Of a stretch of DNA of 64,000 bases, positions 17,769 to 34,304 are shown in pieces; position 1 is the stretch's first letter, and every line of letters begins with the position of its first letter. Source of the DNA: Yinghuangia seranimata. Lineage in GTDB: Bacteria > Actinomycetota > Actinomycetes > Streptomycetales > Streptomycetaceae. Under the pieces are notes generated by a model. The model ran no database searches. It was not told where the DNA came from and saw only the letters and a list, made by a program, of their open reading frames with translations. Position numbers and translations under genes: made by a program. The DNA is taken from positions 62,001 to 126,000 of the forward strand of contig NZ_JASAOI010000008.1 of assembly GCF_029953285.1 (NCBI RefSeq). The letters run 5' to 3'.

Positions 17769-18818
17769 TCAACCGCCTGGCGTGATCACGGGTTTGAGCG
17801 CCGCCCTCGTGTCCATCGCGTGGTAGGCGGCGGGGGTCGACTCCAGGGGCATGCTGGTGTCGAAGACGGGTGAGGGGTCGAGGGTGCCGTCGAGGACGCG
17901 GGGCAGGAGCTCGTCGATGTAGCGGCGGGTCGGGGCCAGGCCTCCTCTCAGGGTGATGTTGTGCATGAACAGGGTCATCGGGTCGAGGGCTTCGGTGTTG
18001 CCGTGCGGGGCGCCGACCCAGCCGATGGTTCCGCCGGGGCGGGTGGCGCGTAGGGCGGTCTGCATGGATTCGCGGGTGCCGACGGCTTCGATGGTGGCGT
18101 GGGTGCCGTGGCCGTCGGTGAGTTCGCGGAGGGCGGTGACGGCCGCCTCGCCGCGTGGGGTGACGACGTCGGTGGCGCCGAAGGCCCGGGCGATGTCGAG
18201 GCGGGCCGGGTGGCAGCCGAGGGCGATGATCTGCTCGGCGCCGAGGAGGCGTGCGGCGAGGACGGCGCACAGGCCGACGGCGCCGTCGCCGATGACGGCG
18301 ACGGAGGTGCCGGGGTGGACGTCCGCGGACACCGCGGCGTGGTAGCCGGTGCCCATGACGTCGGAGAGGGCGAGGATCGCGTTGAGGAGACGGCCGTCCG
18401 AGGCCGCGTCCGCGGGAAGGCGGACGAGGGTGGTGTCGGCGTAGGGGACGCGGACGGCCTCGCCCTGGCCGCCGTCGGCGCCGACCGCGCCGAACAGGCC
18501 GCCGTTGACGCACGAGGTGGGCAGGCCGTCGACGCAGGGGGCGCAGCTGCCGTCGGACCAGGCGAACGGGGCGAGGACCAGGTCGCCGGGGCGCAGCGTG
18601 GTCACGTCGGGGCCGGTGTCGGTGACCGTACCGAGGAACTCGTGGCCGAGGCGTTGGCCTGGTCGGCGTTGCGAGTCGCCGCGGTAGGCCCACAGGTCGG
18701 TGCCGCAGACGCAGGAGCGGAGGACCTGGACGACGGCGTCGCCGGGTTCGGTGGGGTGGGCGTCGGGGACGTCTTCGACGCGGATGTCGTAGGGGCCGTG
18801 GATGGTGGCGGCGCGCAT
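17769..18818 (-). CDS. Zinc-dependent alcohol dehydrogenase
   Basis: A 349-residue medium-chain dehydrogenase. The catalytic zinc ligands appear in CVCGTDLW and RPGQRLGHEFLG. The structural-zinc lobe is reduced: SDGSCAPCVDGLPTSCVNG keeps three cysteines. The cofactor motif is VAVIGDGAVGLCAVLAARLLGAEQI. It starts 9 nt after the stop of the PaaZ-like gene with AAGGAC as ribosome site, so it belongs to the biosynthetic operon. It could reduce the aldehyde released by the thioester reductase to an alcohol, or act on another intermediate. That role is inferred from context only. Confidence 0.88.
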   Translation of the reverse strand: MRAATIHGPYDIRVEDVPDAHPTEPGDAVVQVLRSCVCGTDLWAYRGDSQRRPGQRLGHEFLGTVTDTGPDVTTLRPGDLVLAPFAWSDGSCAPCVDGLPTSCVNGGLFGAVGADGGQGEAVRVPYADTTLVRLPADAASDGRLLNAILALSDVMGTGYHAAVSADVHPGTSVAVIGDGAVGLCAVLAARLLGAEQIIALGCHPARLDIARAFGATDVVTPRGEAAVTALRELTDGHGTHATIEAVGTRESMQTALRATRPGGTIGWVGAPHGNTEALDPMTLFMHNITLRGGLAPTRRYIDELLPRVLDGTLDPSPVFDTSMPLESTPAAYHAMDTRAALKPVITPGG

Positions 18819-18827
18819 GTCGGGTCC

Positions 18828-20816
18828 TTAGTCGGAGGCGGGCCGGTCTGCGGTCAGGGTGGTGAGGTCGAAGCGGGCGACGGGGCGATCGCCGCGGCCC
18901 GCGACGGTGACGTGCCAGCGGACTTCGCCGCGCCCGGCGCGTGGGTGCGCGGTGATGCGCGTGGCGGTCATGGTGACGGTGAGCGGGTCGCCGGGGCGGA
19001 CCGGGGCGAGGAAGCGCAGGTTGTCGAGACCCAGGTTGGCGAGCACGGGCCCGGGTTCGGGTGGGACGAGCATGCCCGTTGCGACGGCGGCGACCAGGTG
19101 GCCGTGGGCGACGATGCCTCGGTAGAGCGGGTGGCGTGCGGCGGCGGCCTCGTCGGTGTGCAGGTAGTAGTGGTCGCCGGTGAGTTCGGCGAAAGCGGCG
19201 ATGTCCTCGCGGGTGACGGTACGGGGGCCGGCGGTGACGGTGTCGCCGAGCCGCAGGTCGCTGAGGTACAGGCTCAGCGGGTTGGTACCACGGGTGGGGT
19301 GCGGGGCGCCCGGTGTCCAACGGTCGGTGGCGGCGGTCAGGTGGGCCGGGGTGCCGCTGACGGTTGTTGCGGTGAGGCGTGTGCGGATGCGGTCCGTGGC
19401 GTCGGGTGCCGGTGGCGGTTCCGCGGGGTGTGCGGGCTCGGGGTTGAGAAGGTGCACGTGTTCGTGCGTGGGGGCCATCGCGCGTGCGAGTTCGCGGGCG
19501 TGGCCCGGGTCTTCGGTGACGATCCAGCTGCGCAGGCCGCTGCCGCCGAGGGTGAGTGCCGCGGCGATGTCGTCGGTGGTGCGGTACGGGATGAGCGTCG
19601 CGACGGGGCCGAACGCCTCGACGCGGTGCAGGTCTCGGGCGTACGGCTCGTCTGCGGCGAGCAGGACCGGAGGCATGTACGCGCCCGGCCCGAACTCATC
19701 TGCTGCGACGACTATTTCCTTGGGCGTCCCGCACATGGTGCGGGCCGACGCGCGCAGTTGGGCGAGCGCGGACAGCACGCGGCGCCGGTGTGCCGCGTCG
19801 ACGAGGGGGCCGAGGACGCCGTCCGCGTGTGCCGGGTCGCCCAGGCGCAAGGCGCGCAGGGCCTCCGAGGCCGCTTCGCCGACGGCGTCCCTCAGCGCGG
19901 CGGGCACGAAGGCTCGGCGCACGGCTCGGCGGGTCTGGCCGTTGTGGGTGGACATGCCTGCTGCCAGGCGATCCACGAACAGGCGGAACGCCGGCCCCCC
20001 GGCTGCGACGTCCGGGCCCAGGACGGCGCAGTCGAGGACGCCGGCCGCGAACTCGGCGCGCGGCGGCGCCGGCATCGAGGCCAGCCGGGTGCGGAGCCGC
20101 CGTGCCGTGGCGGCCGTGCCGGTGAAGCGGACCAGGTCGTGGGGGCCGAGGTGGTGTGTCGGATCGGTGGGGCCGGTGACGAGCTGTAGGCAGCCTGGTG
20201 GGAGGCTCGCGCATTCGCTGATCCGCCGTACGAGGTGGGCGGTCAGCTCGGCAGTGCGGCGCGACGGCCGGACGATGACCGGCATCCCGGTCAGCAGGGC
20301 GCTCGCGAAGGCGTCGAGCATCGTGGTCACCGGGTCGGCGAATCCGGTGATGTGGACGGCGATTCCGGGCGGGGCGGCGGCGAGGAGGGCCGACGGTGAC
20401 CCGCTCGCCGCGTGATGGGCCGGGTCGACGAGCAGTCGCCCGTCGTTCGTCGTCTCCCCCGCGAAGCGACGTGTGACGGAGTCGGCCTGACGGCGCATGC
20501 TGTCGATCCCGGCCCGGACGTCGCGCTCGGCGTCGGCCGGTGCGCCGCCGAGGCGGATCAGGGCGACGAACTCCGCCTGGTACGTGCCGAGATGCCGTGC
20601 CAGCAGCACGAGTGCCCGGGCGCGCCCCGCGAAGCCGAGGCCGTGCAGCGCGGGGATGCCGACCGCGCGGGCGTAGGCGACGGCCGGCGCGGTGTCGACG
20701 GGGACGGCGGTGACCCGGTATGCCTCCTCCCCGTGCACGGCGTGCCGCCGGGGTGTCCCGGCGTCCGTGGGCGTGCGCCACTCGCCGCACTGGTAGTGCG
20801 GCACGGGCCCGGTCAC
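18828..20816 (-). CDS. PaaZ-like aldehyde dehydrogenase/MaoC fusion with a degenerate ALDH domain
   Basis: 662 residues with the domain order of PaaZ: an aldehyde-dehydrogenase-fold half (about 1-500) and a MaoC (R)-hydratase domain (about 515-662). The hydratase catalytic pair is kept (Asp548 and His553 in TGDHYYLHTD), with the PaaZ-like VAHGHLVAAVATG and LGLDNLRFLAPVRPGD stretches. In the ALDH half the catalytic Cys of GQKCT is replaced by Arg (GQTRRAVRR, residue 296), and the Glu of MEADSLN is replaced by Ala (EFAAGVLDCAVLG). It should be dead as a dehydrogenase but active as a hydratase/dehydratase. The GTG start overlaps the AraC gene (GTGA). Proposed role: dehydratase of the polyketide cycle. 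Confidence 0.85.
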   Translation of the reverse strand: MTGPVPHYQCGEWRTPTDAGTPRRHAVHGEEAYRVTAVPVDTAPAVAYARAVGIPALHGLGFAGRARALVLLARHLGTYQAEFVALIRLGGAPADAERDVRAGIDSMRRQADSVTRRFAGETTNDGRLLVDPAHHAASGSPSALLAAAPPGIAVHITGFADPVTTMLDAFASALLTGMPVIVRPSRRTAELTAHLVRRISECASLPPGCLQLVTGPTDPTHHLGPHDLVRFTGTAATARRLRTRLASMPAPPRAEFAAGVLDCAVLGPDVAAGGPAFRLFVDRLAAGMSTHNGQTRRAVRRAFVPAALRDAVGEAASEALRALRLGDPAHADGVLGPLVDAAHRRRVLSALAQLRASARTMCGTPKEIVVAADEFGPGAYMPPVLLAADEPYARDLHRVEAFGPVATLIPYRTTDDIAAALTLGGSGLRSWIVTEDPGHARELARAMAPTHEHVHLLNPEPAHPAEPPPAPDATDRIRTRLTATTVSGTPAHLTAATDRWTPGAPHPTRGTNPLSLYLSDLRLGDTVTAGPRTVTREDIAAFAELTGDHYYLHTDEAAAARHPLYRGIVAHGHLVAAVATGMLVPPEPGPVLANLGLDNLRFLAPVRPGDPLTVTMTATRITAHPRAGRGEVRWHVTVAGRGDRPVARFDLTTLTADRPASD

Positions 20817-21808
20817 GGCCGGTTCCCGGCGCCCGGCGACACCAGCGCGGGCTCGGGGCGTGGGCCGTCGCCGCGGGCGTCGGGCCGGGCGGGGCCGGCC
20901 GGGGTGAGCCCGGCGAGCGCCGCGGAGCGGTAGACGGACGGTGTCACGGCGTACGCGGCCTTGAACATCCTTTGGAAATGGCTGAGGTCGCGGTAGCCGA
21001 CCTTCATACAGATGTCGGACAAGGCAAGATCCGTTTTCAGCAGAAGCGCTTGCGCGCGCTCCATGCGCAAGGCGGTGACGAAGTCGATGAACCGGCCACC
21101 GGTGTGCTTCTTGAAGGTCCGCGAGAAGTGGTATTTGCTCATCTGCGCGACGCGGGCGGCGGATTCCAGGGTCAGGTCGTTGTCGGCGAAGTTGTCGGTG
21201 ATGTACGAGACCGCGGCGGCCACCTGAAGCGCGGCGGCGCGGTCGTCGCGCTTCGACGGATGCCCGCCGGGCATCGGGGCGTCCTCGCGCAGCCGGGCGA
21301 CGAACCACAGAAGATCGTCCGCGAACGCCCGCGCGCCGTCGTGCTCCCGCCCCGGCCCGAGGCCGGACGGCGGACGCTCGTATGCCGGTACGTGCAGGGC
21401 CTTGGGGACGACCACGGCCCCCAACGCGGCCAGCACGACGCGGAGGTGGTCCACCGCGTGGGTGCTCTGCCCGACGCCGACCGACACGATGCCGACCGGT
21501 TTGCGGCGTACGGCGCCTCCCGCGAGCCGGTCCAGGGCGAGTTGGACCTCGCCTGAGGAGGAGTCGTTGCGCACGCCGGCGAGCAGGACCAGGCCGTGGG
21601 CGCGGTGTGCCCAGGTGCTCAGGGTGTCGTCGGTCGGGCTGTGGCGGCCGGGCGGCCCGACCTGGATCCAGTGGGCGGGCCGCCCGGTGGCCGTGCTGAT
21701 CGTGTCGTGCAGGGTCGGGAGCACGTGGGCGAGTCCCGGTAACCCCGCGGGCACGTCGCTGACGACGAGGATGGTGGGCGGGTTGCTTCGGGAAGGCGGC
21801 GAAGTCAT
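20813..21808 (-). CDS. AraC-family regulator with N-terminal FMN-reductase-like domain
   Basis: 331 residues. Residues about 10-155 look like an NADPH-dependent FMN reductase/flavodoxin fold: PTILVVSDVPAGLPGLAHVLPTL, then AHGLVLLAGVRNDSSSGE, then RRKPVGIVSVGVGQSTHAVDHLRVVLAALGAVVVP. Residues about 210-310 are a typical AraC double helix-turn-helix (LTLESAARVAQMSKYHFSRTFKKHTGGRFIDFV...LSDICMKVGYRDLSHFQRMFKAAYAVTPSVYR). The combination suggests redox- or flavin-sensing control. The ATG at 21806-21808 has GGAGG 7 nt upstream. It lies within the biosynthetic operon and is the probable pathway-specific regulator. Confidence 0.85.
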   Translation of the reverse strand: MTSPPSRSNPPTILVVSDVPAGLPGLAHVLPTLHDTISTATGRPAHWIQVGPPGRHSPTDDTLSTWAHRAHGLVLLAGVRNDSSSGEVQLALDRLAGGAVRRKPVGIVSVGVGQSTHAVDHLRVVLAALGAVVVPKALHVPAYERPPSGLGPGREHDGARAFADDLLWFVARLREDAPMPGGHPSKRDDRAAALQVAAAVSYITDNFADNDLTLESAARVAQMSKYHFSRTFKKHTGGRFIDFVTALRMERAQALLLKTDLALSDICMKVGYRDLSHFQRMFKAAYAVTPSVYRSAALAGLTPAGPARPDARGDGPRPEPALVSPGAGNRP

Positions 21809-21934: not shown

Positions 21935-23191
21935 TCATGGCCGGCTCCCCGGCGATTCCCGGTGTCCTTCCATCGTGTGGAGGGGCGGGATTTTCGAAAG
22001 CGGAAGGAAACCGGCCGCTTCGAAGTAGTCGAAGTAGACGCCGACGAGCGCGCCGTCCAGCGGCGGGCAGGCCATGCCGACGCCTTCCAGGTCCCGGACG
22101 GTGTCCCGGTCGTCGACCACCGGCGGGCGGCCGGCTCCGGTCAGCAGCGCCCGGTAGTACGGCACGAGGACGCCCGCCTTGAGCAACGCCCCGTCGTGCC
22201 CGTGCCGCGCCGCCCACAGGCGTTCGAGCCACTCGTCCGGCGGGGCGTAGGACACGGGGAAACGCTTGGCCACATGGCCGATCAGCTCGCGCAGCGGCAT
22301 GCGCGAGGGGTTGACCAGGTACCGGACGGGAGCGCGTCCGACGTGGGCTGCGCTGTCGTGTGCCGACAGCCGGACGATCGCGCGGGCGACGTGGTCGACC
22401 GGTGAGAACGACACATCGGGCCCGTCGTCGTCGGACGCCCCGACCTCGGGGGCGAGACCGAGCAGAGCGATCGCCCGAACGAAGTGCCATATGCCGTCGT
22501 CGAGTTGGCAGGCCCCGGTGATCGAGTGGCCGCTGATCCGGCCGGGGCGGTGGATCCGCACCGGCAGCCCGCGCTCGCCCGCCTGCTGGACGAGGCGTTC
22601 GGCGACCCACTTGCCGGTGACGTAGCCGGATCCGGGGCGTCCGGGCGGCGGGGGCGGCGCGGACGGGTCCGAGGGGTCGCCGGGGACGGCCGCGGTGGAG
22701 ACGAAGCTGAGCGGCTTGCGCCGGTGTTCGGAGGCCAGCCGGATGATCTCCACGGTGCCGGCCACATTGGCAGCGCGCAGCGCGGCGTACGGCGCCGCGT
22801 GGCCGACCTGGGCGCCGTTGTGCTGGACGGCGTCGATCCGTTCGGCGAGTCCCGTCCAGCGGGCGGGGGTCAGGCCTAGGCGGGGTGCCGTCAGGTCTCC
22901 GGCGACGGGCACGACGCGCTCGGCCACACGGCCGTCCCAGATCAGGTAGCGCCGCATGGTCTCGCGTAGCCGGTCGAAGGCGTGGCGGTCGCTGTCGGCG
23001 CGTATCAGGCACGACACGTCGGCGTCGGTTCGGTCGAGGAGTTCGCGGAGCAGGAACGCGCCGAGGAAGCCGGTGGCGCCGGTGAGCAGCACGTTGCGGG
23101 CCGGCCCGATGGCGGGTGCGTCGGCCGCGGCCGGGCTGATCGCGGAGTCGAGCACAGCGTCGGCCGCCGGGTCGGGTCCGGGCGCGCTCAC
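21935..23191 (-). CDS. Thioester reductase-like NAD-dependent protein
   Basis: A 418-residue extended short-chain dehydrogenase of the NAD-binding_4 (thioester reductase/SDR) group. The nucleotide motif TGATGFLG lies at residues 37-44, the catalytic Tyr/Lys in GYVTGKWVAE, and the family FSPVDHVARAIVRL region follows. Stand-alone relatives, and reductase domains of carboxylic acid reductases and NRPS/PKS lines, release an acyl-carrier-bound chain as an aldehyde. The N-terminal 30 residues are flexible. The GTG at 23191 overlaps the transacylase stop (GTGA). In this operon it is the likely chain-release enzyme; no thioesterase is present. Confidence 0.82.
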   Translation of the reverse strand: MSAPGPDPAADAVLDSAISPAAADAPAIGPARNVLLTGATGFLGAFLLRELLDRTDADVSCLIRADSDRHAFDRLRETMRRYLIWDGRVAERVVPVAGDLTAPRLGLTPARWTGLAERIDAVQHNGAQVGHAAPYAALRAANVAGTVEIIRLASEHRRKPLSFVSTAAVPGDPSDPSAPPPPPGRPGSGYVTGKWVAERLVQQAGERGLPVRIHRPGRISGHSITGACQLDDGIWHFVRAIALLGLAPEVGASDDDGPDVSFSPVDHVARAIVRLSAHDSAAHVGRAPVRYLVNPSRMPLRELIGHVAKRFPVSYAPPDEWLERLWAARHGHDGALLKAGVLVPYYRALLTGAGRPPVVDDRDTVRDLEGVGMACPPLDGALVGVYFDYFEAAGFLPLSKIPPLHTMEGHRESPGSRP

Positions 23192-24090
23192 GCCGGCCCC
23201 CGGGACACCGGCTCGGACAGCGCGCCGAGGCCGGTGAACTCCAGGTCGCGGTCCCGCCGTCCGAGCTTGAGCAGCGTGGTGCCCGGCCCGGCGTCGACGA
23301 GGCCGGGTACGCCGAGGCCGCGTACCGTCCGCACGGCTTCCTGCCAGCGCACCGGGAGCACGAGGCCGCGGGCGAGTTGTTCGCGGACCTGCCGCGGGTC
23401 GGTGTGCGGCCGGGCGTCGATCGCGGAGACGAACGGCGTGGTGCCCGGACGGAAGTCGGCGGCCTCGAGGGCGCGGCGCCAGGCCGGGACGGCGTCCATC
23501 ATGAGCGGGCTGTGGAACCCGCCGGGTATCGGCAGCACTTCGGCGCGCAGGCACTGCTCTTCCGCGGCCCGGACCGCGGCGGCCACCGCGGCGGGCGTAC
23601 CGGACAGCACGGTCTGCCGGGTGCTGTTGAGGCCCGCGACGTCGAGGACGCCGCCCTGCACCGCGAGGACGCCCCGGCGCAGCCACTCGATCTCGTCCGC
23701 CGCCGCGCCGACGACCGCGACCATGCCGCCGGGCTTGCTGCGGCTCTGCTCGCGGCACAGCCGGCCGCGTTCCACCGCGAGTGCGAAGCCGTCGCCGATG
23801 TCGAGGAACCCTGCGTACGCCGCGGCGGTCAGCTCGCCGAGGCTGTGGCCGAGCACCACCGGCGGACGACGGCCCGCTCCGAACTCCTCCTCGGCGGCGG
23901 CGATCCCGGCCGCGTACGTCGCCGGCTGGGTGACGGCGGTGTCGGCGAGGTCGAGCCCCTCGGGGTCGGCCACGCCGAAGGCGTCCAGTAACCGGGCGAC
24001 CAGCGGATGGCGTAGGTGGGCACGCAGCGCGCGGAGTACCGTGTCCGCTTTCACGCCCTGGCCGGGGAAGGCGATGCCGAAGCCGGTCAT
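23188..24090 (-). CDS. Malonyl-CoA:ACP acyltransferase
   Basis: A 300-residue stand-alone acyltransferase. The FPGQG motif is at the N-terminus, the nucleophile Ser83 lies in GHSLGE, and the active-site His in PGGFHSPLM. It would load extender units onto the operon's ACPs. The malonyl-type specificity motif GAFH is replaced here by GGFH, so methylmalonyl or unusual extender use is not excluded. The ATG overlaps the FAD oxidoreductase stop (ATGA). The presence of a dedicated MAT, rather than reliance on FabD, suggests a self-sufficient pathway. Confidence 0.88.
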   Translation of the reverse strand: MTGFGIAFPGQGVKADTVLRALRAHLRHPLVARLLDAFGVADPEGLDLADTAVTQPATYAAGIAAAEEEFGAGRRPPVVLGHSLGELTAAAYAGFLDIGDGFALAVERGRLCREQSRSKPGGMVAVVGAAADEIEWLRRGVLAVQGGVLDVAGLNSTRQTVLSGTPAAVAAAVRAAEEQCLRAEVLPIPGGFHSPLMMDAVPAWRRALEAADFRPGTTPFVSAIDARPHTDPRQVREQLARGLVLPVRWQEAVRTVRGLGVPGLVDAGPGTTLLKLGRRDRDLEFTGLGALSEPVSRGPA

Positions 24091-25301
24091 GCCGGGACCT
24101 CCTGGGACCGGATGTCGGGCACGGGGACGAGGTCGGGGCCGCTGCCCGCGGCGCGGTCGAAGAACGCCTGGACCCATGCCGGGTCGTGCACAGCTCCGGC
24201 GATGCGCGCCTCGATGCGGTCGGCGCGGAGCCGGGCCAGGGCGAGGGTGTCGGTGTAGCGGGTGGCGAGCATGCGGTCGCGGTCGGCGGTGTAGCGCTCC
24301 GACGCGGCCTCCAGGCGGGCCGGATCGCGCAGGTCGGCGCCGATTCGGGCGGCGAGATGGGCGGCCTGCTGGAACGCGGCGGTGATGCCGTCCGCCGTGA
24401 TGGAGTCCTTGTGGTGGCCCGCGTCGCCAACGAGTGCCCAGCCCGGACCCGCGGCGCGGCGGAAGAAGTTCCGCTGGGTGCCGCTGCCGTACAGGGGCCC
24501 GATGCGGGTGCCGGCGCGGGCGCGTTCGTGGAGTTCGGGCGCGGCGGCGGCGAGGCCGTCGAGGTAGGCGGCGGGAAGGACCTGCCGGACGGCTGGGTAC
24601 TCGGCCTGCGGGAAGTACACCGCGATCAGGGTGCGGCCGTCGTTGGTGGGAAGGCAGCCGACCCAGCGGCCGCGGACCGCGTAGGCCTCGAACCGCGTGA
24701 CCGGCACGCCTTCCCAGTAGCCGTAGTAGACGCACGTCAGCGGAGGGTGCTCGCGCACCGGCTCCGCCTGAACGGCGGCGGCGACAACCGAGCGCATGCC
24801 GTCCGCACCGATGACCAGGGCGGCGCGGTCGGTGCCGCCGCCGGACGCGGTGCGCCAGCGCACGCCGACGGCCCGCCCGTCCTCGACGAGCACGTCGGTG
24901 ACCCGGCAGTCGTCGCGGAACTCGACGCCGGCGTCCACGGCGGCCTCGGCGAGAAGTGCGTCGAGGAGGTACCGCCGTGGTGCGTAGGCGGCGTGGACGC
25001 CGCCCACCGGGGAGGGGGCGCCTTCGACGGTGACGCCTCCCATGCGGTGCATAGCCGTGGTGATCGGCGGGCACCCGGTCGCGGCGACGCGGTCGAGCAG
25101 GCCCCACCGGTCGAGCAGCGCGGTGCCGGGCTGGTGGATGTACAGGGTCGACAGGGTGTCGCGCGGAAACCGGGCGCGGTCCAGCATCAGGACGCGGTAG
25201 CCCGCGCGCGCCAGCAGCATCGCGGTCGGGGCGCCGCCGCAACGGGCGCCGACGACGATCGCGTCGTAGGCAGGGCCGGGCCCGGGGGGAAAGGCGGTCA
25301 C
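24087..25301 (-). CDS. FAD-dependent oxidoreductase/monooxygenase
   Basis: 404 residues of the p-hydroxybenzoate hydroxylase-like (FAD_binding_3/geranylgeranyl reductase) superfamily. The N-terminal FAD motif is a variant, VVGARCGGAPTAMLLARAG, followed by LMLDRARFPRD. The second FAD motif is ALVGDAGHHKDSITADGITAAF, and VIGADGMRS is the middle DG motif. I see no WxWxIP motif, so it is probably not a flavin halogenase. Enzymes of this group occur in aryl-polyene and flexirubin-type clusters, where they oxidise or modify the chain. It overlaps both neighbours by 4 nt. Candidate reactions are ring hydroxylation, desaturation or epoxidation. Confidence 0.82.
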   Translation of the reverse strand: MTAFPPGPGPAYDAIVVGARCGGAPTAMLLARAGYRVLMLDRARFPRDTLSTLYIHQPGTALLDRWGLLDRVAATGCPPITTAMHRMGGVTVEGAPSPVGGVHAAYAPRRYLLDALLAEAAVDAGVEFRDDCRVTDVLVEDGRAVGVRWRTASGGGTDRAALVIGADGMRSVVAAAVQAEPVREHPPLTCVYYGYWEGVPVTRFEAYAVRGRWVGCLPTNDGRTLIAVYFPQAEYPAVRQVLPAAYLDGLAAAAPELHERARAGTRIGPLYGSGTQRNFFRRAAGPGWALVGDAGHHKDSITADGITAAFQQAAHLAARIGADLRDPARLEAASERYTADRDRMLATRYTDTLALARLRADRIEARIAGAVHDPAWVQAFFDRAAGSGPDLVPVPDIRSQEVPA

Positions 25302-26044
25302 AGCACCAGTCCCCCGTCGATCCCGATGACCTGGCCGGTAATGTAGCGGGCGCGGTCAGAGACGAGGAACGCGACGAGGTCGGCGACCTCGTCCGGCGTT
25401 CCGGGGCGGCGCAGCGGGATGCGCCGGACGATGGACTCCCGTGCCGCGGGCGGCATGTCGTCGGTGACGTCGGTGGTGATCAGGCCGGGTGCGACGACGT
25501 TCGCGCGCACCCCGGACCGGGCGAGCTCGCGGGCCAGGGAGGCGGTGAAGCCGACGATGCCGGCCTTGGACGCCGCGTAGTTGCTCTGGGTCGGGCTGCC
25601 GTGCGCGGCGGCGACCGAGGACAGCGTGACGATGCTTCCGCGGCCGTGCCGCATGAGCGGGAGGGCGGCGGCGCGGCAGGCGTGGTAGGTGCCGTAGAGG
25701 TTGGTGCGGATCACGTCGTCCCATTCGGTGTCGGCCATGCGTGCCAGCGGCCGGTCGCGGACGATGCCCGCGCAGGTGACGAGCACCGACGGCGGCCCGA
25801 GTTCCTTCTCGGCGGCCGCGACGAACGCCCGCGCCTGGTCGGCGGATCCGACGTCGGCCTCGTACGCGAGCACGCTGGCGCCCGCCGCACCGGCCTCGGC
25901 CACGACCTCGTCCGCGGCGTCCTTGCGGGAGCGGTAGCAGAACGCGACGTCGAATCCGTCGGCGGCGAGCCGGGTCACGACGGCGCGGCCGATGCCGCGT
26001 GATCCCCCGGTCACGACGGCGACCGGGCGGTGGGCGCCCGTCAC
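25298..26044 (-). CDS. 3-oxoacyl-ACP reductase (FabG-type ketoreductase)
   Basis: A 248-residue classical SDR. It has the cofactor motif TGGSRGIG, the NAG variant VTCAGIV, the catalytic Ser in IVTLSSVAAAHG and the YAASK pair, ending YITGQVIGIDGGLVL as in FabG proteins. It would reduce the beta-keto group after each condensation using NADPH. It starts 2 nt after the ACP stop and overlaps the FAD enzyme start (ATGA), so it is coupled to both. Confidence 0.92.
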   Translation of the reverse strand: MTGAHRPVAVVTGGSRGIGRAVVTRLAADGFDVAFCYRSRKDAADEVVAEAGAAGASVLAYEADVGSADQARAFVAAAEKELGPPSVLVTCAGIVRDRPLARMADTEWDDVIRTNLYGTYHACRAAALPLMRHGRGSIVTLSSVAAAHGSPTQSNYAASKAGIVGFTASLARELARSGVRANVVAPGLITTDVTDDMPPAARESIVRRIPLRRPGTPDEVADLVAFLVSDRARYITGQVIGIDGGLVL

Positions 26045-27364: not shown

Positions 27365-28563
27365 GCCCGGCCTCCCGCGTAGGACAGCACGAACGAGGCG
27401 TTGATCCCGCCGGTCGCGCAGGAGTTGACGAGCACCGCAGGCCGAGTCAGCGCGAGGGGGCCGTCCTGCGGCAGCCACACGTCGCACTCGGGGTCCTGGT
27501 CGACGGGGGCGTTCGCCGGGATCCTCCCGTGGGAGGCGATGAGTGCGCCGGCCAGACACGCGAACATGCCCGCCGTGCCCGAGCCATGGCCGATCAGGGC
27601 CTTGAGCGCGAACACCGGGGGCCGGTCGGGGACGTCGGCGAACACGCGTCGCAGCGCCCGGCTTTCCACCGCGTCGTTGACCAGAGTGCCGGTCGCGTGC
27701 GGGAGGACGCACCCCACCTGATCCGGCCGCACTCCGGCGTCGGCGAGGGCGTCGCGCATGGCCCTGACCAACTGGACGCCGTCCGGTTCCGGAGCGGTCG
27801 GGTGGTGGTAGGAATCGCAGCTCCACACGGCGGCGCCGAGTTCCGCGTACGGCCAGGCACCGCGCGCGGCCGCGTGGTCGGCGGATTCCAGCACGGCGAA
27901 TGCGGCGCCGTCGGCGAACACCGTGCCGGCCCGGTCGCGGGCGAACGGCCGGCAGCGGTCCGGGTCGGTGACCCTGATCCGGTCGAAGCCGGCCATGCCG
28001 ACCCGGGTGACGCCTTCGGCGCCGCCGACCAACACCACATCGGCCTCGCCCGCGCGGATCATGTCCAAGGCCACACCGAGCGCATAGCCGCCCGCGGCAC
28101 AGGCGTTGCCAATGCCCGAGGCGCCCGCGCGCGAGCCGACCGCCTCGGCGACGACCGCGGCGGTGACCGCGAGCGGCGTCCACCGCGGGGTGCCGCCGCC
28201 CGACGCGCGCTGCTCCTCCTGAACGCTCGCGTTGCCCATCTCGACGCCCATCACCACCGGCACCCGCGCGGCTTCGCCGTCCCCGATGCCTGCGTCGGCG
28301 AGCGCCTCACGTGCGGCGGCGACCGCCATGCGCGGGGCCGGGCCGAGCGGGATCCCTGCGTGCGCCACGGGCTCGACGGGGATGGCCGAAGGGGGTGTCA
28401 GGTACATGCGCTTGGCCCGCATGTTCATGTGCGGCAGGTCGACGTCGTGGGGAGCCGCACCGCCTGCGAGGAGGCCGATCCCGTACGCGTCGACGCCTGC
28501 GCCGAGGCAGGAGACGGCCCCGAGCCCGGTCAGCACCGCGCGACGCCGGTCAGGCCGCGTCAT
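27361..28563 (-). CDS. Beta-ketoacyl-ACP synthase KS1 (active-site complete)
   Basis: 400 residues. All three catalytic positions are present: Cys155 in GNACAAGG, His289 in LPHATGT and His326 in LIGHGSGTAG (with Lys321). The body follows KAS II-type enzymes (DRCRPFARDRAGTVFADGAAFAVLE, NSCATGGINASFVLSY at the C-terminus). It would carry out decarboxylative condensation on ACP. The ATG at 28561-28563 lies inside the overlap with a small upstream ORF. It is followed by its degenerate partner through an ATGA overlap. Use of two KS enzymes suggests division of labour between priming or early and later elongation. Confidence 0.9.
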   Translation of the reverse strand: MTRPDRRRAVLTGLGAVSCLGAGVDAYGIGLLAGGAAPHDVDLPHMNMRAKRMYLTPPSAIPVEPVAHAGIPLGPAPRMAVAAAREALADAGIGDGEAARVPVVMGVEMGNASVQEEQRASGGGTPRWTPLAVTAAVVAEAVGSRAGASGIGNACAAGGYALGVALDMIRAGEADVVLVGGAEGVTRVGMAGFDRIRVTDPDRCRPFARDRAGTVFADGAAFAVLESADHAAARGAWPYAELGAAVWSCDSYHHPTAPEPDGVQLVRAMRDALADAGVRPDQVGCVLPHATGTLVNDAVESRALRRVFADVPDRPPVFALKALIGHGSGTAGMFACLAGALIASHGRIPANAPVDQDPECDVWLPQDGPLALTRPAVLVNSCATGGINASFVLSYAGGRA

Positions 28564-28566
28564 GGC
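28546..28566. repeat. 21-bp direct repeat, copy A (KS1 start)
   Basis: Identical to 28706-28726. This copy spans the KS1 start codon and the stop of the 57-residue ORF. The two copies are exactly 160 bp apart. Confidence 0.85.
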
Positions 28567-28723
28567 AATCACCTTCGAGTTCGTGGTCGTGTCCGCGGCC
28601 GCGGATGTCGGCCGGGTCGGTCTGCGGCGGCGTGGCGCAGTCGGCGTGGGGGCCGCATCGACGGGCATCGCGCTCAAGAGGCCAGGCTGGCGCCCCCACA
28701 GCACTCCGGTCAGGCCGCGTCAT
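28550..28723 (-). CDS. Small ORF (57 residues) between the partner-2 and KS1 genes
   Basis: It begins MTRPDRSAVG, the same six residues as KS1 (MTRPDR), and ends DCHDAA, like the C-terminus of the preceding gene (ERHDAA). Its ATG overlaps the upstream stop and its stop overlaps the KS1 start, because each junction is one copy of a 21-bp direct repeat. It is Arg/Asp/His-rich with three cysteines and resembles no family I know. It may be only a by-product of a 160-bp insertion or duplication that happens to preserve translational coupling, or a true small protein. Confidence 0.35.
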   Translation of the reverse strand: MTRPDRSAVGAPAWPLERDARRCGPHADCATPPQTDPADIRGRGHDHELEGDCHDAA

Positions 28724-28726
28724 GGC
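28706..28726. repeat. 21-bp direct repeat, copy B (end of KS partner 2)
   Basis: Identical to 28546-28566. It encodes the last codons and stop of KS partner 2 and the start of the 57-residue ORF. The pair brackets the only gap inside the KS block. Confidence 0.85.
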
Positions 28727-29687
28727 GTTCGTCTCCCCCACCACGCGCGTTGGCGTCGTACTCGGCTGGACGGGTGAGCAGCACGGCGGCCACTCCGCTC
28801 GGATCGCCTTCACCGTCCGGGTGTTCGCTGTCGCCCCCGGCGACCGCCAGCACCGCGTCGTGTCCCGGCCGGTCGAGCCAGGCCAGGGCGGCAGCGCATT
28901 GCAGGACACCGAGCGCGCCCGAGCAGCGGCCGAGCCGGGCCGTGAGGTCGACCGTCGCGGCCGCCTCTGCGGCGACACCCGGGCCGGCCGCGAGCCGCAG
29001 CCCGATCGGGCCGGGCCAACCGCGGGTCGCGCGGCGCACGGCCTCGGCGTGGTCGGCGGCCCTGCCGTAGGCGTGGATCTCGGCACGTGGCCGGGCGCCG
29101 CGGGCGCGCGCCCGGGCGGGGGTCTCGACGACGAGGCAGGCTGCGCCGTCCAGGTGCGTTGCGCCGCCGTGTTCGGCGTACAGCCGGGCGACCGGCGCGG
29201 TGTCCGGCTCGACGCCGACGACGACGGCGGCTTCGGCGCGGCCCGCGGCGAGCAGGGCGGTGGCCCAGAACATCGCGTCGAGGCCGCTGGTGGTTCCGCT
29301 GCACAGCGTGACGTTGGGCCCGCGCAGGCCGTGTTCGAGCGCCAGCCACCCCGCGGTGACGTTGCTGGACATGTGCGGGACGCGCATCGGGCTGAGGCCG
29401 ACGACGGTCTCCTTGCCGATGGTGTCGACGAACGCGCAGACGGTGTCGAGGTTTCCCAGGTTGCTGCTGACGATGACGGCGGTGCCCGACGCGGGCAACG
29501 CGGTGCCGTGCAGCGCACGCCGGGTGGCGCGCAGGGCGAGCCGCGACGCGCGGTCCTTGTGCCGGAGCCCCGCGCCGCCCCGCCCTGCGTCGTCCTCGGG
29601 CACGCTGCCGCTGCCCGGTTCCAACAGGTCGTGTTCGTCGGCGATGCCGGTGACGGCGATCCCGCAGCCGGTGATCAAGGCGCGCAT
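28710..29687 (-). CDS. Degenerate KS partner 2 (short CLF-like beta-ketoacyl synthase homologue)
   Basis: 325 residues, built like partner 1: a recognisable N-terminal KS half (VIVSSNLGNLDTVCAFVDTI, PMRVPHMSSNVTAGWLALEHGLRGPNVTL) and a shortened, divergent C-terminal half. The catalytic Cys position is Thr (CSGTTSGLDAM, residue 132), and neither His is present. It cannot condense by itself and is best read as a chain-length or structural partner of KS2, whose stop it overlaps (TGATG). The last codons lie in a 21-bp direct repeat shared with the KS1 start. Confidence 0.82.
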   Translation of the reverse strand: MRALITGCGIAVTGIADEHDLLEPGSGSVPEDDAGRGGAGLRHKDRASRLALRATRRALHGTALPASGTAVIVSSNLGNLDTVCAFVDTIGKETVVGLSPMRVPHMSSNVTAGWLALEHGLRGPNVTLCSGTTSGLDAMFWATALLAAGRAEAAVVVGVEPDTAPVARLYAEHGGATHLDGAACLVVETPARARARGARPRAEIHAYGRAADHAEAVRRATRGWPGPIGLRLAAGPGVAAEAAATVDLTARLGRCSGALGVLQCAAALAWLDRPGHDAVLAVAGGDSEHPDGEGDPSGVAAVLLTRPAEYDANARGGGDERHDAA

Positions 29688-30823
29688 CAGGCAGCCCTCC
29701 CGACGATGGCAACGGCGTTGATGCCGCCGAGGCCGATGGCGTTGATCTGTGCGGTGTCGACGCGTTCACGCGCCGGGACGCCGGCGACGAGGCGCAGGCC
29801 GCGCGCCTCGGGGGTCGGGTCGGTCAGTTCCGGGATCGGCGGCGACTCGCCCGTCCGCATGGCGAGGACGGCGACCATCAGGCTCATCAGGCCGGAGCCG
29901 CCGCAGGTGTGGCCGAGCCCGGACTTGACCGAGGTGACGAGCGGCCCGGGCCGCACGCCGCGGAAGACGTCGCGCAGGACGCCGGCCTCCACGGCGTCGT
30001 TGTGCCGGGTGCCGCTGCCGTGCACGACGACCAGGTCGACGTCGCGGGCGGAGATCCCGGCGCGGCGGTGGGCGTCGCGGACCGCGTCGGAGACGCCCGC
30101 GGTGTCGGGGACGGTGGCGTGCGCCGCGTCGCAGTTCGTCGCGACGGCGCGGACGCGGGCGTGCACGGGCCGGGGATGGCTGCCGGAGGCGCGCACGACG
30201 ACCGCCACGGCGCCCTCGCCCATGACCATGCCGCGCCGGTGCCGGGCGAACGGCCTTATGGCCTGCGGGGGCGGGTTCTGCACGCGGTCGAGTCCGCCGA
30301 AGGAGCTCTCGGTGATGGCGTCGGTGCCCGCGACCACGACGGTCTCGGCGAGGCCCAGCGCGATCAGGTCGGTGGCCATGGCCAGGGCGTACAGCGCGGC
30401 CGCGCAGGCGCTCGCGACGGTGTGCGTCTCGGTGGTGCCGAACGCCTCGCGCATCGCCCGGCCGAAGTGCAGGTCGGCGGGGGCGAGCGGGTGCCCGTCG
30501 CGCCACCACAGTTCGGCGGAACGGAGTTCGCGCAGCGTGGTTCCGACGATGACCGGCACATCGGGGACGTGGGCGGGCAGCCCGGCGTCCGCGAGTGCGG
30601 CCGCGACGGCGGCGCGCAGCCAGCGGGTGGCGCGCCCGGGCTCGTCCTGGCCGGGGACCGCCCGGTCGTCGATCTCGTACGCGTGCTTCACCCGGAACAG
30701 GGAGCTGTCGAAGGCGCGCAGCGGGGCGACGCCGGTGCGGCCGTCGCACAACGCGCGGTGCACGGCGGCGGGTTCGTCGCCGAGGCAGGTGACGGCGCCC
30801 ATCCCCACGATGTCCCAGCTCAT
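29687..30823 (-). CDS. Beta-ketoacyl-ACP synthase KS2 (active-site complete)
   Basis: 378 residues with a full catalytic set: Cys140 in ASACAAALYAL, His268 in VVHGSGTRHND and Lys300/His305 in SVKSGLGHTCGG. Other KAS II landmarks are RPFARHRRGMVMGEGAVAVVV and the C-terminal NAIGLGGINAVAIV. It differs clearly from KS1 in sequence, so the two are not a recent duplication. Together with partner 2 it would make a second KS/CLF-like heterodimer. The ATG overlaps the ligase stop (ATGA), so priming and first condensation enzymes are co-translated. Confidence 0.9.
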   Translation of the reverse strand: MSWDIVGMGAVTCLGDEPAAVHRALCDGRTGVAPLRAFDSSLFRVKHAYEIDDRAVPGQDEPGRATRWLRAAVAAALADAGLPAHVPDVPVIVGTTLRELRSAELWWRDGHPLAPADLHFGRAMREAFGTTETHTVASACAAALYALAMATDLIALGLAETVVVAGTDAITESSFGGLDRVQNPPPQAIRPFARHRRGMVMGEGAVAVVVRASGSHPRPVHARVRAVATNCDAAHATVPDTAGVSDAVRDAHRRAGISARDVDLVVVHGSGTRHNDAVEAGVLRDVFRGVRPGPLVTSVKSGLGHTCGGSGLMSLMVAVLAMRTGESPPIPELTDPTPEARGLRLVAGVPARERVDTAQINAIGLGGINAVAIVGRAA

Positions 30824-32301
30824 CGCTGCTCCTGCGGGACGCGCAGCCGGTAGCGGGCGAGCTTGCCGGTGGAGGTGGTCGGCAGCGCGGCGAGGATTTC
30901 GACGCGCGAAGGGCGCTTGTGCGGCGGGAGGTTCTCGCGGATCGCGCGGGCGAGGGCCCGCCGGGCCGACTCGGGCGCGACGCCGTCGGCGGGGACGGCG
31001 TGGACGACGGCCTGCTCGAGGCCGGCCTCGTCGCGGCCGCCGACGACGACCACCTCGGCGATGCCCTCGGTGGCGCGCAGCGCGGCCTCGATCTCGGCCG
31101 GGGCCACTTTGAAGCCGCCGAGGTTGAGCAGGTCGTCGGCGCGGCAGAGGTGCCGGAAGTCGCCGTCCTCGGTGCGGTAGGCGATGTCCCCGGTGTAGAC
31201 GCCGCCGTCGGCGAAGGTCCGCGCGGAGTCGTCGGGCCGGTCGATGTAGCCGAGTGCGGCGGACGCGGACCGGATGTGCAGGCGGCCGTGCGCTCCGGCG
31301 GGCAGCGGCCGCCCGTCGTCGTCCCGCACGGTCGCGGTCACCCCGGGCACGGGGTGGCCGGTGGAGTCGGGCAGCGGCGCGTGCGGTGTGGTGGCCAGCA
31401 CGATGTGGAGCACTTCCGTGGCGCCCAGCCCGTTCAGCACGGGCACGCCGAGGGCCGCCGCCGCCCGAGCGGACAGGTCGGAGGGCAGGTGCTCGCCCGC
31501 GGCGACCGCGAGCCGCAGCGACGACGGGTCGAGCACGGTGCCGCGCGCGACGGCGTCGAGCAGCGCCGCGTAGAGCCTCGGGACCGCGCACAGCACGGTC
31601 GGCCGGTGCCGGTGGACGGCGGTGATCGCCGAGTACGGGTCGACGGGGCCGGCGAGCAGCACCGACCTGGCGCCGGCGGCCAGCGGGAACAGCACCGAGT
31701 TCCCGAAGCCGTAGCCGAAGGACAGCTTGGCGGTCGACAGCACCGTGTCGTCGGGCGTCAGGGCGAGGACGCCGCCGAAACCGTCGAGGACGGCGCGCAG
31801 CCCGGCGACACCGTGCCGGACCCCGCGCGGCCGCCCGGTACTGCCGGAGGTGTACTGGACCAGCGCCTCGGAGCCGAACGGGGCGGGCGGCCCTGCGTCG
31901 GCCGCGCGGGTGGCGCCGGGTTCGCGCACGGGCAGCGGCCGCAGGGCCTCGCGCAGACCGTCCCGCCGTTCCTCGGGCAGCGGGACTTCGGCGTATTCGG
32001 CGCCGCAGTCGCGGGCGACGAAAGCGATCTCCTCGTCGGTCAGCATCGGGCTGAGGACGACCGGGACGCAGCCGTACCACCACAGGCCGAGCACGGCGAC
32101 GACGGTGTCCGCGGTGTCGTCGCCGACGACCAGCGCGCGGCAGCCGCGTCGTACTCCGGCGGCGGCGAGCGCTCCTGCGTGGTCGCGGGCCGCCTGGGTC
32201 AGTTCGGCGTAGGTCAGGGCGCGTTCGTGGTCGACGAGGGCGGTGTGGCGGCCGTGGCCGGCCGCAAGGTGGCGCAGCAGCAGGATCTCGACGGGGTTCA
32301 T
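30820..32301 (-). CDS. Aryl/acyl-CoA (or -ACP) ligase, benzoate-CoA-ligase-like
   Basis: A 493-residue adenylate-forming enzyme. The P-loop is QYTSGSTGRPRGVRHG, the A5-type motif GLGATEVLH, the A7 motif GDIAYRTEDGDFRHLCRADD and the catalytic Lys in TTSTGKLARYRL. The stretch STAKLSFGYGFGNSVLFPLAAGARSVLL is characteristic of the benzoate/4-hydroxybenzoate-CoA ligase branch, so an aromatic acid is a reasonable starter substrate. It is coupled by ATGA overlaps to the ligase-ACP protein upstream and KS2 downstream. Specificity cannot be read reliably from sequence alone. Confidence 0.87.
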   Translation of the reverse strand: MNPVEILLLRHLAAGHGRHTALVDHERALTYAELTQAARDHAGALAAAGVRRGCRALVVGDDTADTVVAVLGLWWYGCVPVVLSPMLTDEEIAFVARDCGAEYAEVPLPEERRDGLREALRPLPVREPGATRAADAGPPAPFGSEALVQYTSGSTGRPRGVRHGVAGLRAVLDGFGGVLALTPDDTVLSTAKLSFGYGFGNSVLFPLAAGARSVLLAGPVDPYSAITAVHRHRPTVLCAVPRLYAALLDAVARGTVLDPSSLRLAVAAGEHLPSDLSARAAAALGVPVLNGLGATEVLHIVLATTPHAPLPDSTGHPVPGVTATVRDDDGRPLPAGAHGRLHIRSASAALGYIDRPDDSARTFADGGVYTGDIAYRTEDGDFRHLCRADDLLNLGGFKVAPAEIEAALRATEGIAEVVVVGGRDEAGLEQAVVHAVPADGVAPESARRALARAIRENLPPHKRPSRVEILAALPTTSTGKLARYRLRVPQEQR

Positions 32302-34304
32302 CGCGCGCCGCCCTCGGGTGCGGCGGTCACCGGACCGCGGCGGGTGAGGAGGTCGAGGAGGTCGGCGAGCGAGTCGGCGCCGGCCGCCTCCTCGGCCTCG
32401 AACCGTACGTCGAAGGCGCGTTCGACGCGGGTGACGATCTCGATCTTCTGCAGCGAGTCGATCCGCAGCTCGGTGTGGAAGCCGTCCGAGAGCGCGACGG
32501 CGTCGGCCTCGAGGACGTCCTCCGCGATGCGGCTCAGGGTCTCGGCCACGTCCACCCGGGGCCGGCCGTACCCGGCGACAGCTAGCCTCTCGGCCGCGTC
32601 GGCGTGCGGTGCGGTGGCGAGATGGGCAGGCAGGTCGCGGTACTTCTCGCGGAGCCGGCGCTTGAGCACCTTGCCGGTCGCGCCGACCGGCAGGTCGTCG
32701 TCGGTGACCGCGATCTCCAGTGCCGCGAGCGGCGGTTGGCCGATCGCGGCGAGGGCGGAGTTGGCCCGGGCGAGCAGCCGGTCGGGGTGCGTCTGGGCGG
32801 CCGTGTCGCCGTCGCGCAGCCGGACCACCGCCACCGGGACGGTCGCCCCGCGGTCTCCCCCCGCCACCACCGCGCAGTCGGCGGCTTCCGGGAGCGCGAG
32901 CAGGAGCGTGTCCTCCATCAGCACGGAGTGGCCCGTCGCGCCTGCCGTGGGGATCGTGTCGACGATGCGGTCGACGTGGAAGTACTCGTTCGCCGCGTTG
33001 CGTCGGACCAGGTCGCCGGACAGGAAGTACCCCGCGAGCCGGCTGCGGTGGTAGGTGTCGTCGTCGTTCCAGTAGCCGGTGGTCACCGAGTCCCCGCGGA
33101 CGCCGAGCATGCCGACCTCGTCGGGTCCGGCGGGGGTGCCGTCCTCGCGCAGGACCGCGACCTTCATCCCGCCCACCGGCCGGCCGAGGTGGCGCGGCGC
33201 GGAGGGGGTGTCCGCGGTCGTGGTGCGGCGCAGCGCGGCCCAGCCGAGTTCGGACGAGCCGAGGATGTCGTGGAACACCGAGCCGGGCACCCGCTCGCCG
33301 TCGACGTGGCGGTGGCCGAGCCGTACCAGCCGCCGCACGTGGGCCTCGTGCGCGGAGTCCCCCACGTTCGCCCAGTCCCGTACGGAGGAAAAGGCCTCCG
33401 GATCGGCGTCGGACAAAGCGAGTTCGGCGAGGGCGTGGTTGAAGGCGAACACCGTCGTGGGCCGGTACAGGTCGGCCGCCCGCGACAGGCCGGCCGCGCT
33501 GCGGTCGGACAGCGCGACCGTCGGCAGTCCGGCCAGGAGCGCGAAGAGCGTGACGGCGATGGCCGCCCCGTGCGACAGCGGTGCCGCGCACAGCAGCAGC
33601 GAGTCGGCGGGCTCGGGCTGGGCGGCCAGCCGGAAGGCCGGCCCGGCCACGCTCTGCCGGTGCGTCCAGGTGACCAGCTTGGGGTTGCCGGTGGTGCCCG
33701 ACGAGTGGCACAGGAAGACCGGGTCGGAGTCGCCGTGCCGGTACCGGGCCCGGTCGGGCAGCACGGCGCCGCTCAGGTCGCCGGCGTCGTCCCGGGTGAA
33801 CGCCCAGCGCAGTGAGGGGAGTTCCTTCTCGCCCCCGGCGAGCCGCTGCAAGTGTGCGGCATCGGTGTAGAGGCCGATCGCGTCGGCGCGCCGCAGCAGC
33901 CCCAGCACGACATCACCGGGCAGCCGTCCGTTGACGACGACCGCGATCGCGCCGAGCTGGGCGAGCGCGGCCAGGTGCGCGTGCTCCTCGAACGAGTCCT
34001 CTATATACAGCCCTACGCGGTCGCGCGGCCGCACCCCCTGGGCCAGGTACCAGGCCGACCACGCGTCCGCGAGCGCGCACAGCGCGGCGATGCCGAACTC
34101 CGCGCGCGGCAGTCCGTCGACGCCCGGAATCGGCGGATCGGCCACGACCAGCGTGGCGTCCGGATCCCGGCTGTGCGCGAGCGCGGTCTGCCAGACGTTC
34201 CCGCCGCCGAGGCGTGGGTCCCGGGCCACGTCGACGCGCCCCGCCCGGGGCAGCAGAGTGCGCCGCGCGGACGGCACGGACAGATGAGGGGACGCGGACA
34301 GCAT
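32298..34304 (-). CDS. Adenylate-forming enzyme fused to an acyl carrier protein
   Basis: 668 residues. The N-terminal adenylation domain (about 1-560) has the P-loop LCHSSGTTGNPKLVTWTH, SSELGW at the A5 region, the FLSGDLVRRNAANEYFHVDRIVD hinge and the terminal Lys in LPVGATGKVLKRRLREK. From about residue 580 an ACP follows, with Ser617 in LRIDSLQKIEIV as the phosphopantetheine site. It would activate an acid and load it onto its own carrier. It is the first gene of the coupled biosynthetic run, 244 nt downstream of the phosphatase gene. The ATG at 34302-34304 has only a weak ribosome site. Confidence 0.87.
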   Translation of the reverse strand: MLSASPHLSVPSARRTLLPRAGRVDVARDPRLGGGNVWQTALAHSRDPDATLVVADPPIPGVDGLPRAEFGIAALCALADAWSAWYLAQGVRPRDRVGLYIEDSFEEHAHLAALAQLGAIAVVVNGRLPGDVVLGLLRRADAIGLYTDAAHLQRLAGGEKELPSLRWAFTRDDAGDLSGAVLPDRARYRHGDSDPVFLCHSSGTTGNPKLVTWTHRQSVAGPAFRLAAQPEPADSLLLCAAPLSHGAAIAVTLFALLAGLPTVALSDRSAAGLSRAADLYRPTTVFAFNHALAELALSDADPEAFSSVRDWANVGDSAHEAHVRRLVRLGHRHVDGERVPGSVFHDILGSSELGWAALRRTTTADTPSAPRHLGRPVGGMKVAVLREDGTPAGPDEVGMLGVRGDSVTTGYWNDDDTYHRSRLAGYFLSGDLVRRNAANEYFHVDRIVDTIPTAGATGHSVLMEDTLLLALPEAADCAVVAGGDRGATVPVAVVRLRDGDTAAQTHPDRLLARANSALAAIGQPPLAALEIAVTDDDLPVGATGKVLKRRLREKYRDLPAHLATAPHADAAERLAVAGYGRPRVDVAETLSRIAEDVLEADAVALSDGFHTELRIDSLQKIEIVTRVERAFDVRFEAEEAAGADSLADLLDLLTRRGPVTAAPEGGAR

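Follow-up and report, generated by a model that had tools for sequence, protein, structure and literature searches.

Gene content and conservation of a predicted aryl-primed reducing type II polyketide synthase cluster in Yinghuangia seranimata

We analysed a stretch of 64,000 nucleotides from Yinghuangia seranimata (contig NZ_JASAOI010000008.1, positions 62,001 to 126,000; hereafter the window), which carries a minus-strand run of 14 genes for a type II polyketide synthase (PKS) and associated enzymes. These 14 genes are one cluster, common to three actinomycete genera, because the same set was found together in Embleya hyalina and in Nonomuraea jabiensis. The best reading of the cluster, and one that we think rather probable from the protein families present, is a reducing type II PKS that starts from an aryl unit, most likely an aminobenzoate, and ends with reductive release. 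Its product looks like a small aryl polyene built on an aminobenzoate-type starter and freed as an aldehyde or alcohol rather than as an acid.

All 14 genes named in a first-pass annotation of the window were confirmed at 17769-34304 by a GC-frame gene caller and by Pfam and NCBIfam scans (Table 1). The cluster extends exactly from 17769 to 34304, and all 14 frames are open, with starts taken from translations. In order of transcription the genes encode an adenylating enzyme with a fused acyl carrier protein (ACP) domain (LigACP), a second adenylating enzyme (Lig2), a ketosynthase (KS) and its degenerate partner (KS2 and PA2), a further pair of the same kind (KS1 and PA1), a discrete ACP, a ketoreductase (KR), a flavin adenine dinucleotide (FAD) enzyme, a malonyl transferase-like protein, a thioester reductase (TR), an AraC regulator, a PaaZ-like fusion of an aldehyde dehydrogenase (ALDH) domain to a MaoC domain, and an alcohol dehydrogenase (ADH). 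Genes overlap by one or four bases at 7 of the 13 junctions, and the largest gaps are those between PA2 and KS1 (146 bases), TR and AraC (126 bases) and PA1 and ACP (82 bases). The discrete ACP, KR and dehydratase (DH) of a highly reducing type II PKS are present together with KS and degenerate partner, the MaoC domain being the DH candidate, and the reducing type II assignment of the first-pass annotation was thus upheld.

Conservation of the 14 genes as a unit

Some match to PA2 (E<=1e-10) was obtained in 78 of 297 Streptomycetaceae genomes, and 40 loci around the better matches were mapped with the 14 window proteins. Some genomes contributed two loci, one locus was only 9 kb long, and the stretches were 20 kb or less, so that distant gene copies would be missed. 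One locus of the 40, in Embleya hyalina NBRC 13850, contained all 14 genes in the same order, with 54-77% protein identity. A pattern scan with one genome per species, which reaches close relatives only, gave 12 loci, including one unrelated match at 28%. Among them was that of Nonomuraea jabiensis DSM 45507, a member of another family, which also has all 14 genes (73-92% identity), with the AraC/ALDH-MaoC/ADH block located upstream of the first gene instead of downstream of TR. As this block has moved as a unit and yet been kept, it belongs to the set, probably as its own transcription unit.

The flanks were compared over approximately 16-20 kb, using 101 proteins from the Embleya and N. jabiensis regions and the 55 genes called in the window. 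The other matches were weak and generic, comprising SDR proteins in N. jabiensis (31-37%) and three oligopeptide-transporter proteins in Embleya (24-34%). The 126-base gap before AraC, and the opposite position of the AraC-ALDH/MaoC-ADH block in N. jabiensis, would suit several unrelated operons that merely adjoin one another. However, the block stays with the PKS genes in three genera while the flanks have only weak generic similarities in common, and we regard such chance adjacency as extremely improbable; the first-pass description of a self-contained cluster therefore holds.

Next to the cluster, an oligopeptide-type ABC transporter operon occupies window positions 35359-40918 and is followed by a glycosidase-like gene at 40915-42723. 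Neither is conserved beside the cluster.

Table 1. Genes of the cluster in order of transcription (window coordinates; scores in bits)
Gene	Coordinates	Strand	Assignment and features
LigACP	32298..34304	-	ANL adenylating domain (AvaA6/CmaA6 diazotase group) with C-terminal carrier, probably starter ACP; PP-binding 29.3
Lig2	30820..32301	-	benzoate/anthranilate-CoA-ligase-like adenylating enzyme, proposed starter ligase; TIGR02262 314.9 (cut-off 375.25)
KS2	29687..30823	-	ketosynthase, Cys-His-Lys-His intact
PA2	28710..29687	-	degenerate KS partner, chain-length-factor-like; Thr132 at catalytic Cys position
KS1	27361..28563	-	ketosynthase, Cys-His-Lys-His intact; start 28563 inferred from translation
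PA1	26381..27364	-	degenerate KS partner, chain-length-factor-like; NSPAVAG, no Cys; start 27364 inferred
ACP	26047..26298	-	discrete ACP, proposed malonyl carrier
KR	25298..26044	-	FabG-type ketoreductase; NF009466 253.5 (cut-off 222); TIGR01830 276.7 (cut-off 297.75)
FAD enzyme	24087..25301	-	FAD_binding_3 flavoenzyme; closest solved structures halogenase-family flavoproteins, 67
Malonyl transferase-like	23188..24090	-	malonyl-CoA:ACP transferase-like protein; MdcH 149.8 and FabD 138.9, both under cut-off; GHSLGE
TR	21935..23155	-	thioester reductase, proposed release enzyme; TIGR01746 303.6 (cut-off 213.35); GATGFLG, YVTGK
AraC	20813..21808	-	AraC regulator with N-terminal FMN_red (flavodoxin-like) domain over Pfam cut-off
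PaaZ-like	18828..20816	-	ALDH-MaoC fusion that retains MaoC Asp/His but has lost the ALDH nucleophile and Glu; proposed dehydratase
ADH	17769..18818	-	zinc alcohol dehydrogenase, proposed aldehyde reductase

Ketosynthase pairs, reduction and release

The two KS/degenerate-partner pairs claimed for the cluster were borne out. C155, H289, H326 and K321 are invariant in all 10 rows of an alignment of KS1, KS2 and relatives, in which three rows are without part of the N-terminus, and KS1 matches the ishigamide KS (6kxd_A) with 187 bits. PA2 and its relatives carry the motif C-x-G-x-T-S-G (13 rows), the catalytic Cys position being Thr, Ala or Pro and never Val or Gly. An invariant Cys lies three residues before this position, and PA2 is thus degenerate by its motif and not by the absence of any Cys. 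PA1 and its relatives likewise have no Cys at the catalytic position (5 rows, one truncated). AlphaFold models of PA2 and PA1 (mean pLDDT 76.0 and 73.8, pTM 0.82 each) matched ketosynthases in Foldseek searches; the PA2 match was of middling quality (TM ~0.66, rmsd ~8), and the best matches of PA1 were chains of the AntDE:AntF complex, with ishigamide chain length factor (CLF) chains at ranks 13, 18 and 23. From motifs and models, both partners are predicted to be degenerate CLF-like proteins with a ketosynthase fold.

The best NCBIfam match of KS2 is AmcF (182.7 bits), which raises the possibility that KS2/PA2 makes a small carbocycle instead of a polyene and works as a cyclizing pair in the manner of the cispentacin proteins AmcF-AmcG (accessible part of PMC10698177). 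This score is well under the AmcF cut-off of 325 bits, though, and AmcG matched PA2 with only 29.9 bits (cut-off 80), its model covering 157 positions as against the 325 amino acids of PA2. Membership of the cispentacin type was rejected on these scores, and a cyclizing role appears highly unlikely.

Inspection by eye showed that the motifs of KR, TR and ADH are kept. The first-pass annotation had listed enoyl reductase, aromatase, cyclase and thioesterase as missing. For the last three this stood, as none of these families was over cut-off in the 14 proteins (Pfam, E<=0.01; best 25 NCBIfam matches), but the FAD enzyme may possibly be an enoyl reductase. In NCBIfam the FAD enzyme matched a geranylgeranyl-reductase subfamily best, with 79.4 bits against a cut-off of 158.8.

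The MxaA reductase domain frees a carrier-bound chain. It is the closest solved relative of TR (PDB 4u7w, 264 bits), which has the YxxxK motif; the MxaA reductase is part of a large synthase, whereas TR is a free protein. By this likeness, TR is proposed to release the ACP-bound product. TR, ALDH-MaoC and ADH were matched in only one of the 40 related loci, that of Embleya. Six small proteins picked from sister loci (L022, L023, L024, L106, L149 and L152) all belong to the hotdog thioesterase superfamily, over Pfam cut-off. These thioesterases, set against the TR found here, suggest that the release enzyme has been swapped, and they add to the first-pass claim of a thioester reductase at the end of the line, for which the family score in Table 1 is over cut-off.

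The PaaZ-like protein aligns over its length with E. coli PaaZ (PDB 6jql) and has the same ALDH-MaoC architecture. Its MaoC Asp/His pair is retained (GDHYYLH aligned with GDHFYAH). Where PaaZ has the ALDH motif GQKCT, the window protein reads GQTRR and that of Embleya GQTRA, and Ala or Thr replaces the ALDH Glu further upstream; we take these positions to be those of the catalytic Cys and Glu. In both genomes the dead ALDH domain is nevertheless still full length, and the MaoC domain joined to it has its dyad. Because the ALDH Cys is lost and the MaoC Asp/His kept, the protein is probably a hydratase or dehydratase on a dead ALDH scaffold, which narrows the earlier PaaZ-like hydratase call to the MaoC half.

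The AraC orthologue of N. jabiensis has the same FMN_red plus AraC architecture. A flavin- or redox-sensing regulator is possible.

The starter and the role of LigACP

The closest solved structures to Lig2 are benzoate-CoA ligase (231 bits) and anthranilate-CoA ligase (4wv3, 212 bits), and the starter ligase is more likely to be this second gene than the first. The aryl starter ligase of the first-pass annotation was therefore retained for Lig2 but not for LigACP, whose ligase domain groups with diazotases; of the two primers it had offered, aryl and acyl, the acyl primer is less likely.

In Embleya an anthranilate synthase gene lies divergent from LigACP. Its product is over both curated cut-offs (NF010081, 887.8 bits, cut-off 645), and three congeners gave only partial matches to it (39-42%). 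This gene beside the cluster suggests an aminobenzoate starter. Aminobenzoate-forming genes were present within the fetched stretch in five of 17 clusters with LigACP, Lig2 and KS2, a count in which the stretches differ in length and two clusters (L151 and L152) are near duplicates. Embleya and L150 have the anthranilate-synthase type, and L035, L040 and L110 have PhzE/isochorismatase/DhbA-type genes; L036 has a tyrosine-ammonia-lyase-like gene instead. Among loci with a LigACP homologue without the close core, 12 of 13 carry aminobenzoate-type genes (one PhzE-, five PapAB- and six GriI/GriH-type), or 11 of 12 when L124, a GriI/GriH-type locus chosen by its GriH match, is left out as it should be. 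Where a cluster has no aminobenzoate gene, anthranilate would come from primary metabolism.

A starter of 3-amino-4-hydroxybenzoic acid (3,4-AHBA) is unlikely and was rejected, since no match to dehydroquinate synthase (DHQS, PF01959) was found in the window genome or Embleya, whereas two of the six genomes searched had one. L035, L040 and L110 are themselves reducing PKS clusters in which a LigACP homologue accompanies genes that would be expected to supply 3-hydroxyanthranilate as starter.

The best NCBIfam model for LigACP is the AvaA6 diazotase (NF058622). Among solved structures it scored 487 bits with 9xb8, 313 bits with 8ztz and 270 bits with 9bq0/8tf7, the last being Tri17 according to the accessible part of PMC11705231. 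In a tree built from 29 homologues, in which 20 of 26 inner branches had good support, the enzymes of the window, N. jabiensis and Embleya fell together (100/100) within a group linked to aryl-PKS clusters, with a PapAB-linked group adjacent and 3,4-AHBA-linked enzymes outside; the diazotase landmark rows in the LigACP comparison were these 3,4-AHBA-linked homologues, not the published AvaA6 and CmaA6 proteins. Glu352 and Lys545 of the ANL domain are invariant in all 11 rows aligned. Judging by these relatives, the ANL domain is probably a nitrite-dependent enzyme acting on an aryl amine. As sister clusters L024 and L036 have an ACP fused to the front of Lig2, the carrier fused to LigACP is probably the starter ACP.

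Several observations weigh against a diazotase role or an aminobenzoate primer. LigACP lies far under the AvaA6 equivalog cut-off (368.9 against 975 bits) and is not filed as AvaA6, and its closest solved relative, 9xb8, was named a fatty-acid-CoA ligase by its depositors. Nitrous-acid genes were not found in the three clusters, nor was a nitrosuccinate lyase found in N. jabiensis at E<=1e-180, and the Embleya lyase (contig C24) sits in a nybomycin-like gene run. Twelve of the 17 clusters, including those of the window and N. jabiensis, had no aminobenzoate gene within the fetched stretch, and the present cluster is cryptic. ANL-ACP fusions, moreover, usually load their own carrier. The absent nitrous-acid genes and lyase, the naming of 9xb8 and this habit of ANL-ACP fusions would all fit a LigACP that is no diazotase but activates an acid and loads its own carrier, giving two acid-loading ligases in otherwise the same machinery. 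We take this alternative seriously but consider it the less probable one, because AvaA6 is the best model, Tri17 ranks within its top four solved relatives, the tree places LigACP with enzymes encoded beside PhzE-type, PapAB-type and 3,4-AHBA genes, and the fused ACP corresponds to the Lig2-fused ACP of the sisters. The absence of nitrous-acid genes is not decisive, since 72 of 134 ava-related clusters likewise are without them (accessible part of PMC10777205). The starter may also differ from anthranilate, being a non-amino aromatic acid (benzoate, 3- or 4-hydroxybenzoate) or 3-hydroxyanthranilate: the top scores of Lig2 are with benzoate-CoA ligases, and L035, L040 and L110 carry the set for 3-hydroxyanthranilate. 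Set against this, Embleya has its anthranilate synthase next to the cluster, and sister cluster L150 encodes a protein of the same domain make-up with 50% identity to it; we judge a different starter plausible, though anthranilate is the better candidate.

A nitrosuccinate lyase over the curated cut-off was found in 11 of 15 genomes of the LigACP group and in 83 of 282 others (Fisher p ~8e-4, ignoring relatedness). For the closer LigACP group the figures were 7 of 10 and 87 of 287 (p ~0.013, again ignoring relatedness), and seven of eight named genomes have the lyase, N. jabiensis being the exception. In the window's subtype two of three genomes have it, in neither case near the cluster. As these counts include the nybomycin-type gene of Embleya and are uncorrected for relatedness, the association says little for the LigACP subtype of the window. 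A pair of lyase and FAD partner is present on contig C36 of the window genome and on Embleya C24. On C36 the lyase (754 bits) lies next to a transporter and to a distant ANL gene of its own. The C24 run encodes 3-deoxy-D-arabino-heptulosonate 7-phosphate (DAHP) synthase, isochorismatase, an anthranilate-synthase type enzyme, an FAD protein and the lyase. It was set aside as a partner in trans, as it matches the nybomycin gene list; a congener without PA2 or LigACP match carries a 95% identical copy of the C24 synthase. The published nybomycin list equals the C24 set, and E. hyalina produces nybomycin (accessible parts of PMC6265801 and PMC13152386, respectively).

Other loci of related interest were seen. 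The Embleya run matching the nybomycin set lies at L132 1582-12065. In the window genome, L131 9557-16957 (C36) contains the nitrosuccinate lyase and FAD partner, a large transporter-like gene and an ANL ligase 26% identical to LigACP, and is probably another cluster of nitrogen-nitrogen type. In L112-L116, LigACP homologues (42-46%) lie beside PapAB-type genes, and L114 has both a CreE-like gene and a nitrosuccinate lyase in that stretch.

Known systems and the proposed pathway

The first-pass annotation had taken aryl polyenes and flexirubins as the comparison. Flexirubin membership was rejected (FlxB-type KR, 202 bits, cut-off 340), and the actinomycete clusters ava (avenalumic acid) and cma (p-coumaric acid), as described in the accessible part of PMC10777205, are nearer than the Gram-negative aryl polyenes or flexirubins. 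Like the present cluster, they have an aryl-ACP ligase, one ACP for the starter and another for malonyl, KS-CLF and a reductase, and they have the ANL diazotase and the aryl amine starter that are predicted for it. They differ in their in-cluster 3,4-AHBA starter genes, in nitrous-acid genes (present in about half of relatives), in a single KS-CLF pair and in a published gene table without TR, ADH or PaaZ-like protein. The 3,4-AHBA-linked loci looked at are only 27-33% identical to Lig2 and 36-38% to LigACP. The spinamycin cluster (spi), compared by description only, builds an aryl polyene on an amino aryl starter and has a diazotase whose aniline substrate carries no hydroxyl; it differs in its hydrazide product and in a fused nitrous-acid enzyme, SpiED (accessible part of PMC11705231). 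PKSs of the ishigamide, skyllamycin and kitacinnamycin type have the KS/CLF fold (PDB 6kxd-6kxf), KR and sometimes more than one KS pair; the accessible part of PMC6510318 does not mention an aryl starter ligase or TR release for them. Several KS pairs in one polyene cluster are thus already on record there. For the whole gene set, the first-pass view that it matches no named cluster is supported, as none was found in the open-access literature searched, a scope that leaves subscription papers and supplements outside.

Also comparable are Streptomyces clusters L149-L156, with a LigACP homologue, Lig2, KS2 and KR, and in most also PA2 and ACP. In those looked at, the fused ACP is on Lig2 and not on LigACP, and L149 and L152 have a thioesterase-superfamily protein. 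No close match to KS1/PA1, TR or the PaaZ-like protein was present in the fetched stretches, and only L155 and L156 gave a generic 32% ADH match. L149 also carries a ThyX-type thymidylate synthase gene at 3187-3984 (Thy1, 141 bits), with a similar protein in L150; one reading is a spare target enzyme for self-protection.

The genes themselves, their conservation together, the catalytic motifs, the lost cysteines and the protein families were observed; the starter, the sequence of events, the length of the chain, the released compound and diazotization are inferred in the best explanation of the genes, which follows. Lig2 would adenylate an aromatic acid, with an aminobenzoate such as anthranilate as the most likely candidate, and load it onto the carrier domain of LigACP, while the malonyl transferase would place malonate on the discrete ACP. 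The aryl thioester would be extended by KS2/PA2, with KS1/PA1 following or helping, reduced by KR and dehydrated by the MaoC half of the PaaZ-like protein to give an aryl (poly)enoyl-ACP. TR, replacing a thioesterase, would free the chain as an aldehyde, and the zinc ADH would turn this into an alcohol. Like AvaA6 and CmaA6, the ANL domain of LigACP probably depends on nitrite for its action on the aryl amine, and the AraC protein would regulate the cluster. More speculatively, and with small probability, an anthranilate-primed reducing type II PKS may combine a carrier-fused diazotase working on a carrier-bound aryl amine with reductive release; the aryl enal so formed, bearing an ortho-amino (or diazonium) group, would close to an N-heterocycle such as a quinoline or cinnoline. 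If true, such ring closure would be a new enzymatic route to these rings.

The ligase-carrier fusion makes diazotase action on carrier-bound aryl amines testable, and the PaaZ-like protein with its dead ALDH half offers an example on which to test whether a PKS has recruited a pseudoenzyme scaffold for dehydration. The related type II lines that were compared end in thioesterases, and acids are expected there; a reductase ending a reducing type II line would instead yield aldehydes and alcohols from a compact set of 14 genes, whose presence in three genera offers alternative expression strains.

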